The translations under genes and the position numbers were made by a program. A DNA stretch of 21,280 nt from positions 1 to 21,280 of the IMG/VR virus record IMGVR_UViG_3300023198_000445; one strand, given 5' to 3'. Shown here one piece after another: positions 13,204 through 19,124 of this stretch (positions within the stretch are counted from its first letter, which is position 1; each line of letters opens with the position of its first letter). This DNA is from a virus. The notes beneath the pieces are model-generated. The model had not been told where the DNA came from. It worked only from the letters and a program-made list of their open reading frames with translations, and searched no databases.

Positions 13204-13239
13204 CTCGAAGCCAGGGGTTGAAAAAAGTGAATTAAAGGG

Positions 13240-13266
13240 AATGAGGTCTAACAGACCTCATTTTTT
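13240..13266 (+). terminator. Intrinsic terminator of the giant rightward genes
   Basis: A perfect 10-bp stem, AATGAGGTCT / AGACCTCATT, with a 3-base loop is followed at once by a run of T on the + strand. It lies 36 bases after the stop of the 1381-aa gene and should end the late giant-gene transcript. Confidence 0.9.
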
Positions 13267-13280
13267 ATTCCCCCTAAATG

Positions 13281-13308
13281 TAAAAACCTATGGTGAACAG
13301 CCATAAGT
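13281..13308 (-). terminator. Intrinsic terminator of the leftward module, directly after the tRNA
   Basis: On the minus strand an 8-bp stem, ACTTATGG / CCATAGGT (one wobble), with the 7-base loop CTGTTCA is followed by TTTTT. It begins two bases after the 3' end of the tRNA, so it probably ends the whole leftward transcript. It faces the rightward terminator across a short gap, insulating the two convergent blocks. Confidence 0.75.
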
Positions 13309-13310
13309 AG

Positions 13311-13382
13311 TAGTCCTGCCCAGGTTCGAACTGGGGACCTTCTCCATATCAGGGAGATGCTCTACCACTGAGCTACAGGACT
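13311..13382 (-). tRNA. tRNA-Ile (anticodon GAT)
   Basis: A full 72-nt cloverleaf on the minus strand. The 7-bp acceptor is AGTCCTG/CAGGACT, the D stem GCTC/GAGC, the anticodon stem TCTCC/GGAGA with loop CTGATAT (anticodon GAT), the variable loop 5 nt, the T stem CCCAG/CTGGG with loop TTCGAAC, and the discriminator base A. The 3' CCA is not encoded and would have to be added by the host enzyme. No intron is seen. It is the last element of the leftward module, after the zinc-ribbon/coiled-coil gene, and is followed by a terminator, so it is probably cut out of the 3' end of the long leftward transcript. Confidence 0.95.
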
Positions 13383-13433
13383 GTGAGGATGCCCGTAGAG
13401 GCCCTTTTAAGGCCCATACAGGCACTATCTCAC
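13383..13433 (-). other. Long imperfect hairpin abutting the 5' end of the tRNA
   Basis: On the minus strand the ends GTGAG and CTCAC pair. Inside them TGCC-t-GTA pairs with TAC-g-GGCA, and further in GGCC pairs with GGCC around a short A/T-rich loop. The hairpin fills nearly the whole gap between the stop of the zinc-ribbon/coiled-coil gene and the first tRNA base, ending exactly at the tRNA 5' end. It may act in transcript processing or 3'-end protection; that is inference. Confidence 0.5.
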
Positions 13434-13448
13434 ATTAGTGGTATCTTA

Positions 13449-16886: not shown

Positions 16887-17327
16887 TTAGACTGCATCTT
16901 TTAATCCTTCTTTGAAGATCTCACTAACTTCTCCTATGTTACTATTCTCTTCAAGTTCATCAATGAACATTCTTTGCAAACCATCTACCTCAGCTTCAAT
17001 GAGCTCAGATAATTCTGCAAATACAGGTATGCCAAGTGATTCAGCAGTGGCAATTTCTGCGGCGGTACCTTTAGATGTCTCTCCATTTGGGACTAAAAGT
17101 ACTGCATCGGATGCCATTAACCAAGGTTGTCCGTTCTCAAAGTATTCTTCGTAGCTGGAGTAACCATGTTTAATACCACACAGTAAATCAATAGCAGGAA
17201 TAAATACGGAGAATCCTGCAAGACGGGCTGCTTCAGCAGTTTCCATCATCTTATGTACATTATACAAGTAACCTACTGCATCAGCATTTAATTTACCTGC
17301 AACGTATACTCTAGTTTTTCTCTCCAT
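16887..17327 (-). CDS. DUF4406-like protein, nucleoside 2-deoxyribosyltransferase fold (146 aa)
   Basis: A Rossmann-like nucleotide-handling protein. The N terminus RVYVAGK (Y8, G11) with a helix and GFSVFIPAIDLL, then PWLMASDAVLLVPN (S73, D74) and TSKGTAAEIATAESLGIPVF (S85, G87, E91), follows the order YxAGPxx, SD, SxGxxxE of nucleoside 2-deoxyribosyltransferase-fold proteins, closest to DUF4406. E91 is in the place of the catalytic Glu that attacks the N-glycosidic bond. Candidate substrates are deoxynucleotides or related N-glycosides; which one is unknown. ATG at 17327 is preferred over the TTG one codon upstream; it overlaps the end of the primase gene by 17 bases, so translation is probably coupled. 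Confidence 0.75.
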   Translation of the reverse strand: MERKTRVYVAGKLNADAVGYLYNVHKMMETAEAARLAGFSVFIPAIDLLCGIKHGYSSYEEYFENGQPWLMASDAVLLVPNGETSKGTAAEIATAESLGIPVFAELSELIEAEVDGLQRMFIDELEENSNIGEVSEIFKEGLKDAV

Positions 17328-18309
17328 CAAATAGTTCTTTTAATAATTCAATTGTTTTCTGTTTACTCATGTCTTTAGCAAAGTCACTTATATCCTTTAT
17401 ACCATACATATCAAGGTAATGTTTGTCTATAAATATCTTCTCTAAGTCATGCTTACTACACAGCGCTTCTGCTCCTTTAATACCACCTTCATCATAGTCA
17501 AAGAAGACTATTATCTTCTTGAACCTCGTCTTCAAATGCTCCATTAATACCATAGGTATGATAGAGTTCTCACTTTGTGGTGCTACGGAAGCATAACCAT
17601 GTTCATACAGAACCATTACGTCTTTGAGAGATTTTGTTATTATTAGTAAATCACCAGATTCTGGTAATTGTGTTAAACCTTGTAAATCATATGATCCACA
17701 ATTGTTTCTCCATTTGTCTTTCTTGTACTTAGCGTACGGTCGGTATATTTTAAACTTATCAAACACCTTATATGCATACATGGGACATTCCTTACTATAT
17801 GTAAGGATCCCTTGTATTTCATTATGCCAATACATCAGTATAGGAGTTACCTCATAGAATTTCAAGGTCTCTCTACATATACCAAATTGGCCCCAGTAAT
17901 CATCATCTGTCTGGGTAAAGTATTTACGCTTCACTGTCAACTCGGTTTCAATCTTATTGACTCTCTCTACTTTAGGTCTGGTGTGACCATTCTTCTGTTT
18001 ATCACCTGTCATCAAATCAGCCCATATCTTTTCAAGGGCCTTATGGTATGTCAGGTCAAACATACTTTTGACTAAATGGACGACGTTACCACTGTCTCCA
18101 GTAGCAAAGTCTTTATACATTAGGTCACCACTTCGTGCTTTGAATAGAGTCCAGGAAGGATTCTTATCCTCACGTAATGGTGAGTTAATAGGTTTGTTAA
18201 GTTTTACTTCTTTTCCAACATAGAATGTATAAATATCAAGTGGATCTAATTTTGTTAAGATCTTATCTAATGTGACATCATCTGTCACTTTAGCTGTGTT
18301 ATATACCAT
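17311..18309 (-). CDS. DnaG-type primase (TOPRIM, 332 aa), zinc ligands and TOPRIM Glu replaced
   Basis: Makes RNA primers at the phage replication fork, working with the DnaB-type helicase of the module. The N-terminal part has INSPLREDKNPSWTLF (41-56) and YKDFATGDSGNVVHLV (65-80), which follow the CHC2 zinc-domain pattern (CPFH..KTPSF, then GD...FV) but without its Cys/His ligands. The TOPRIM part has LLIITKSLKDVMVL (221-234) and KIIVFFDYDEGG (D271, D273). The DxD metal pair is kept, while the usual Glu of the (V)EG turn is Lys (K226). The length is short compared with bacterial DnaG; no separate helicase-binding domain is evident. The ATG at 18309 lies 14 bases after the structured segment. 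The TAG stop overlaps the next gene and is backed by an in-frame TAA six codons later. Confidence 0.85.
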   Translation of the reverse strand: MVYNTAKVTDDVTLDKILTKLDPLDIYTFYVGKEVKLNKPINSPLREDKNPSWTLFKARSGDLMYKDFATGDSGNVVHLVKSMFDLTYHKALEKIWADLMTGDKQKNGHTRPKVERVNKIETELTVKRKYFTQTDDDYWGQFGICRETLKFYEVTPILMYWHNEIQGILTYSKECPMYAYKVFDKFKIYRPYAKYKKDKWRNNCGSYDLQGLTQLPESGDLLIITKSLKDVMVLYEHGYASVAPQSENSIIPMVLMEHLKTRFKKIIVFFDYDEGGIKGAEALCSKHDLEKIFIDKHYLDMYGIKDISDFAKDMSKQKTIELLKELFDGEKN

Positions 18310-18323
18310 ATGAAAAGAAATAT

Positions 18324-18521
18324 AAAAGGATCACGCGGGGTTTCTCACTGCTAATGTACCGTTCCCAGATTACCAATTGGTTCTACTATAAACCCTTTTT
18401 CGATTATCACCATTGGCCTTGGGATTCACTACGATACAAAACGTTAGAGCTGGACTTGGGCATCGCTTTATGCAGAAGCACGCTAAGATGTTATTCCCTT
18501 ACCGGGTCTTGTGATCCTTTT
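18324..18521 (-). ncRNA. Structured non-coding segment between SSB-like and primase genes (candidate ncRNA or leader)
   Basis: The 221-base gap lacks a credible gene on either strand and is visibly richer in G+C than other gaps here. Read on the minus strand, AAAAGGATCAC (18521-18511) and GTGATCCTTTT (18334-18324) form a perfect 11-bp closing helix. Inside, GGG...CATC pairs with GATG-CCC (18498-18487 with 18464-18458) around a further small hairpin, and GGGTTT (18395-18390) can pair with AAACCC (18343-18338) or locally as GGTT with AACC. CCAATGGTGATAATC and CCAATTGGTAATC are near-repeats inside it. It ends 14 bases before the primase ATG. It could be a regulatory leader of the primase, a stand-alone RNA or a replication-related DNA structure. 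I do not recognise it as a known riboswitch, group I intron, tmRNA or RNase P RNA. Confidence 0.55.
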
Positions 18522-18530
18522 GATTATATA

Positions 18531-19124
18531 TTAGGAAGTAGGTGGCCAAGGCAGATCATCATCTGCTCTTGGTAATGTAGCATTAACTGGTTCAAATGGA
18601 TTAGATTGTGGCTTCTCCACATCTGCCTGTGTCTTGGTCATCTTATCAATTGATAGAATCTCAAGTTTGGATTTCTCCGCAGGTACCTCCATTGTCTCAA
18701 TAAATGGTACATAATTAGGCAGTGAGGTATAGTTATTAAAGGAATAAACTACCTTCAATCTAACCTTCTTACCTACATAACTCGTTCCTAAAAGACTGAT
18801 CGTAGAGTCGCAGAAACCTTTAAAGTCAGCTGCTTCAAATACGAATACATCTTCTGAAATGAATTTGGTTACAATATGTTTAATACGTTTAATCTGATTG
18901 GCTTGCTTGTTCTCAAGCTTCTCAGGATCTACATCCCTAGGTTTCCATTCGGTGTGGGACAGCTTCTTCCCATCCTTTTCAAAGTGAAATACTATGAATT
19001 CGTTATTCCCTTCGGGACTAACTTTATATTCTACTCCAACAAGTTCTACACTTTCATGGATTCCTACATCTAGGAAATTAGTTGCTCTAGCTTCAGATTT
19101 AACGCTCTTATCTACTTTATACAT
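18531..19124 (-). CDS. Single-stranded DNA-binding-like protein (197 aa)
   Basis: Probably coats single-stranded phage DNA in replication and recombination. The first 150 residues alternate beta-like strands (VELVGVEYKVSP, EFIVFHFEKDG, KVRLKVVYSFN) compatible with an OB fold. The C-terminal part is a low-complexity, proline-rich linker ending in the acidic DDDLPW (188-193), which resembles the DDDIPF tip by which bacterial SSB recruits partners, though here four more residues follow. Position between the Sak4-like ATPase and primase supports the assignment, because Sak4-type annealases commonly act with a phage SSB. OB-fold identity is inferred from pattern and context, not from a clear signature. 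The ATG at 19124 is 10 bases after the preceding stop; its stop precedes the structured segment. Confidence 0.65.
   Translation of the reverse strand: MYKVDKSVKSEARATNFLDVGIHESVELVGVEYKVSPEGNNEFIVFHFEKDGKKLSHTEWKPRDVDPEKLENKQANQIKRIKHIVTKFISEDVFVFEAADFKGFCDSTISLLGTSYVGKKVRLKVVYSFNNYTSLPNYVPFIETMEVPAEKSKLEILSIDKMTKTQADVEKPQSNPFEPVNATLPRADDDLPWPPTS

Follow-up and report, generated by a model that had tools for sequence, protein, structure and literature searches.

The window that was analysed is a virus record of 21,280 bases from IMG/VR, which is a crAss-like phage as judged from its gene content. The plus strand of the window contains open reading frames of 2999 aa and 1381 aa in the ORF list. 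The minus strand contains a replication operon that consists of a DnaB-like helicase, a Sak4-like annealing protein, an ssb-like protein, a primase, and an exonuclease. Among annotated phages, the primase and the ssb-like protein have their closest relatives in Crassvirales, chiefly Suoliviridae. The ssb-like gene (18531-19124, minus strand, 197 aa) was identified from the ORF list, from Crassvirales homologues found by tblastn, and from alignment, and its protein has no PHROG or Pfam match. The ssb-like proteins of the relatives terminate in the SSB-type tip DDLPF. The C-terminus of the window protein is DDDLPWPPTS (18531-18560) where nearly all relatives have DDLPF or a close variant, and about 12 nt inserted in the final codons of the window gene have altered this tip. 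The primase gene (17311-18309, minus strand) matches PHROG 12622, DNA primase, with an E-value of 8.9e-48. Ordinary terminators are located in other minus-strand gaps of the window (19836-19815 and 15082-15063). The gap between convergent genes at 13204-13448 contains a tRNA-Ile (gat) and several terminator-like hairpins.

A segment of 198 nt is located in the 221-nt gap between the ssb-like gene and the primase gene. The minus strand is the sense strand of this hairpin because both flanking genes are on the minus strand. The hairpin begins 9 nt past the ssb-like stop codon at 18531 and ends 14 nt before the ATG of the primase, a location that fits the control of primase synthesis that had been proposed as a possibility in the earlier note. 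The segment is closed by a perfect inverted repeat of 11 bp, AAAAGGATCAC and GTGATCCTTTT, with the 5' arm at 18511-18521 and the 3' arm at 18324-18334 on the minus strand, and the two arms are 176 nt apart. The repeat described in the earlier note is real, as its arms are complementary and a perfect 11-bp repeat arose in just 4 of the 1000 dinucleotide-shuffled versions of the gap. The closing helix has only four G-C pairs, and its predicted pair probability is approximately 1 within a context of 421 nt. The minus strand at the end of the hairpin reads GTGATCC and then TTTTATATTTCTTTT, which is a T-rich tract (18313-18327, minus strand, 12 of 15 T) that overlaps and then follows the 3' arm. 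The CCTTTT and the T-rich tail are kept in close relatives.

The G+C content is 43.9% in the segment, 37.6% in the whole window, and 13% in the remainder of the gap, in agreement with the earlier description of a G+C-richer segment. The segment is also non-coding as had been claimed. The possibility that it encodes a plus-strand protein was rejected, since 66 codons are open in one frame by chance and the 73-aa plus-strand ORF across the segment has no Pfam match.

The loop interior of 176 nt (18335-18510, minus strand) is lineage-specific and its structure is not beyond chance. The folding z of the interior with the arms removed was +0.05 for the minus strand and +0.24 for the plus strand relative to shuffles. 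The folding z of the whole 198-nt segment was -2.1 to -2.35, and the closing helix accounts for this value of about -2.2. The inner helices that had been listed in the earlier note are present as letter matches, but they are short and expected by chance, where about four 6-bp complementary pairs are estimated for 176 nt, and they provide no evidence of structure given the interior z of +0.05. The Rfam covariance models gave no match to the segment at the gathering score or at E-values up to 5, which is consistent with the earlier statement that it could not be assigned to a known class. No tRNA or degenerate tRNA was found in the window interior even at E-values up to 5, and a T-arm with an acceptor stem was likewise not found there. 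The similarity search with the segment among phage and plasmid records also gave no match. Two exact 18-mers of the interior were not found among 2.9 million viral contigs of IMG/VR in an exact search, which is insensitive to divergent relatives. The loop interiors of all relatives were compared by BLAST with all fetched loci, and no common source was found.

The same gap was compared in the relatives. Two relatives, L002 and L003, have primases that are 91% identical and ssb-like proteins that are 90% identical to those of the window. The flanks of their gaps (TTCTAATATATAATCAAA..., ...CCTTTTTATT(T)CTTTTCATATGG) agree almost completely with those of the window as far as the GG/CC at the stem base. 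The arms of both relatives differ from those of the window yet are complementary (GGAGCT/AGCTCC and GGGGACT/AGTCCCC), and the loop sequences that they enclose, 55 and 40 nt long, are unrelated to the window interior. Fourteen arms were placed in register, and their own partners paired at 62 of 70 inner positions compared to a shuffled mean of 34.5 (sd 4.1), with none of 20,000 shuffles of the arm partners reaching 62, where the register was set by hand and predicted folds were used at bulges, so that the count leans towards structure. The complementarity of the arms in the relatives is plain from the sequences themselves. The closing helix, as judged from these arms, is under selection for pairing. 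The earlier note had named the absence of compensatory changes in relatives as evidence against its structured RNA; such changes are present in the closing helix, but for the interior no homologous interior was found.

In the more distant relatives that have the hairpin, it is mostly either ordinary and compact with T directly after it, or moderately increased in size. One example of the short terminator-type hairpin after the ssb-like gene is AAGGGGCTGA-7nt-TCGGCCCCTTTTATT. The T-tract side has 5.1 T in 8 positions versus 4.0 A in 8 on the opposite side among 55 hairpin-bearing gap entries, which include some near-duplicates. Approximately one quarter of the gap entries, near-duplicates included, have no hairpin. 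It is absent from the ssb-primase gap of L008, L024, and L027, for instance, and the hairpin is therefore dispensable. The hairpin loop of L054 (4777-4864) holds a T-arm-like piece, GTCCGTTCGAATCGGAC, for which neither Rfam nor ARAGORN gave a tRNA match, and its closing helix is predicted to be weak. The gap upstream of sak4 exhibits a similar turnover of terminator stems among the window, L002, L003, and L006. Judging from these gaps, such turnover may be a common property of the intergenic hairpins of this phage group.

The replacement of the loop was identified between two contigs, L017 and L018. Both contigs are identical over about 500 nt to the left and about 400 nt to the right of the hairpin, and over longer distances a single mismatch is present across 4772 nt and 12 mismatches across 1008 nt. 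The contigs differ at L017:4768-4915 and L018:4768-4802, where the inside of the hairpin, between a common AAAGG and a common CCCTTTTT, is 137 nt in L017 versus 24 nt in L018. The longer insert has its own inner helix of 12 bp. An assembly error is formally possible as the source of this difference, but an assembly chimera is not expected to supply a matching inner helix. A crossover with a divergent flank is unsupported, as the first mismatch is encountered 398 nt from the hairpin on its right side and 498 nt from it on its left side. It is doubtful, though conceivable, that the base of the hairpin is a dedicated site of loop exchange where cassettes (a plain loop, a tRNA-like piece, or a long insert) are swapped between otherwise identical crAss-like phages by hairpin-directed or short-homology recombination, perhaps through the neighbouring Sak4 and SSB proteins, which would change the amount of primase.

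The ssb-primase gap of gut Suoliviridae contains tRNAs or tRNA-like RNAs, some of them with inserts. The gaps before the primase of L069 and L071 have an ordinary tRNA-Cys and an ordinary tRNA-Leu, respectively. The same gaps of L060, L062, L063, L064, L065, L067, L068, L070, L074, and L132 have tRNA-like ends (T-arm and acceptor stem) whose D or anticodon region is apparently interrupted by inserts, and these are mostly not called by ARAGORN; the gap of L062 scores 33 bits as a tRNA. The RNAs in the gap of gut Suoliviridae adjoin a pseudoknot-like motif and another T-tailed hairpin. The near-invariant motif, GCCTACGCTAGGC-(5-6 nt)-TAGCGATACG, is located in the ssb-primase gap of L065, L074, L159, and L162 (gut Suoliviridae and kin) and in the gap downstream of ssb in L075 (3612-3729). 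It can form a hairpin whose loop CGCTA pairs to TAGCG, and it directly precedes the T-tailed hairpin CGTGAGTA..TACTCACGTTTT, whose loop is short or long. L063 has a longer insert between the two halves of the pseudoknot-like motif.

A conserved and strongly covarying RNA of about 95 nt was identified in many environmental relatives, and all of its occurrences are immediately upstream of the sak4-like gene. Its core is ...CCAAAAG...CCACCGAGG-hairpin-ACCCGAACGCAATATCGGTTA... It is located at L013:3371-3463, L009:2191-2288, L022:3362-3454, L025:3371-3463, L026:3357-3450, L028:3350-3448, L031:3346-3434, L034:1299-1406, L035:3379-3472, L037:3379-3472, L045:3366-3458, L079:23-108, L085:22-115, and L098:18-111, with weak members in L043 and L046. 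Double compensatory changes are present in 13 of 19 predicted pairs of one alignment (A5). Every cell of the ten core pairs is paired in another alignment (A7), whose covariation score of 0.597 drops to 0.130 on shuffling and does not exceed 0.088 on sliding; these figures benefit from the fitting of A7 to the model structure. The RNA has no Rfam match in the loci scanned, and it was not found in the window or in the gut loci searched. The window element was rejected as its homologue, as the best score of its model (R1) in the window is 13.5 bits at another position. The RNA upstream of sak4 is a candidate new structured RNA family and a better candidate than the window element.

We consider the segment, with a probability of roughly 0.7, to be an intercistronic hairpin of the intrinsic-terminator type after the ssb-like gene that tunes the transcription of the primase and whose loop is replaceable. 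This reading is built on the observed position and strand polarity of the hairpin, its conserved pairing with compensatory changes, and the replacement of its loop. We infer that the hairpin terminates or attenuates transcription and that a long loop weakens termination. The stem would form when RNA polymerase reaches the U-tract, and part of the transcripts would be stopped or slowed there. The stem would also shield the 3' end of the ssb message, and the primase would be produced from read-through at a lower level. A promoter between the hairpin and the primase start is ruled out because just 14 nt are located there, and a promoter inside the loop is possible. The loop would act as a permissive site that holds a 176-nt sequence without clear structure in the window and a short or unrelated filling in the relatives. 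A long loop should slow the closure of the stem, and the interior is predicted to occupy part of the 5' arm by pairing until the 3' arm has been made; the window version may therefore terminate weakly.

The earlier note had proposed a discrete structured RNA, possibly a switching one. A small RNA or a switching primase leader with a lineage-specific interior would agree with a non-coding segment that is G+C-richer than its gap and closed by a selected helix, and the tRNAs and tRNA-like RNAs of gut Suoliviridae indicate that RNA genes do settle in this gap. However, the interior folds no better than shuffles, it has neither an Rfam match nor any relative that was found, and the interiors are unrelated in relatives whose primase is 91% identical. 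The segment is moreover replaced outright between L017 and L018, which are otherwise near-identical. The conserved, covarying interior expected of a riboswitch or structured non-coding RNA is absent here. A functional RNA of this kind is unlikely, and the description of the window element as a new riboswitch or structured RNA is mostly not supported. There is an outside chance that the hairpin serves RNA processing or stability, for example as an RNase III site or as 3'-end protection, and separates the ssb and primase messages without termination. The consistent T-tract directly past the stem is needed for termination and not for processing, and the stems of most hairpin-bearing relatives are short and terminator-typical, although a perfect 11-bp helix between same-strand genes, with conserved pairing and a loop of unimportant size, would also suit processing.

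The gene neighbourhood is what points to a DNA hairpin for replication, such as a priming site or an origin, between the SSB and primase genes. This is very unlikely, as the sequence of the arms changes freely while their pairing is kept, the polarity of the T-tract follows transcription, similar hairpins end other genes, and several relatives have no hairpin in the gap. If a small mobile element bounded by terminal inverted repeats of 11 bp had entered the gap, this would explain the repeats at both ends, the sharp boundaries, and the replacement of the loop between near-identical phages. Such an insertion is highly improbable, since the window interior was not found elsewhere in the searches made, and the same stem base, with other letters in the arms, is present in relatives that do not have the insert. 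The arms are therefore part of the host hairpin and were not brought in by the insert.

The window element is thus probably a hairpin that controls transcription and whose loop can be replaced. The stem of the terminator type is kept, while the loop can be exchanged freely and differs even in phages that are identical elsewhere. Tools for terminator prediction ignore loops of such size, and hairpins of this kind are therefore overlooked or taken for new RNAs. Compensatory changes in the closing helix alone do not make the interior a functional RNA. The ssb-primase junction provides a natural series of loop sizes that can be used to study how termination and the balance of SSB and primase respond to the size of the loop.

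The RNA upstream of sak4 resembles the window element in being a large domain and in having an outer helix that abuts a T-run in several of its members, and its gap is located two genes upstream. The RNA upstream of sak4 differs in its conserved sequence and covarying interior. The tRNAs of Suoliviridae (tRNA-Leu of cr131 and tRNA-Cys of Bohxovirus) occupy the same genomic gap in the same phage order, but the window interior has no tRNA match. The window hairpin is similar to intrinsic terminators in that a U-rich tract comes directly after its stem in the transcript, as in the relatives, and in that it is located just after the ssb-like stop codon on the coding strand. Many relatives also have an ordinary short terminator-type hairpin at the same place. 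It differs from intrinsic terminators in its loop of 176 nt, its overall length of 198 nt, and the modest G+C content of its stem. The annotation rule of a Term-seq study (PMC12207403) requires a loop of 3-13 nt, for which the median is 4, and a stem-loop no longer than 59 nt. The loop of the window hairpin is far beyond this canonical range, and the hairpin is therefore a variant and not a textbook terminator.
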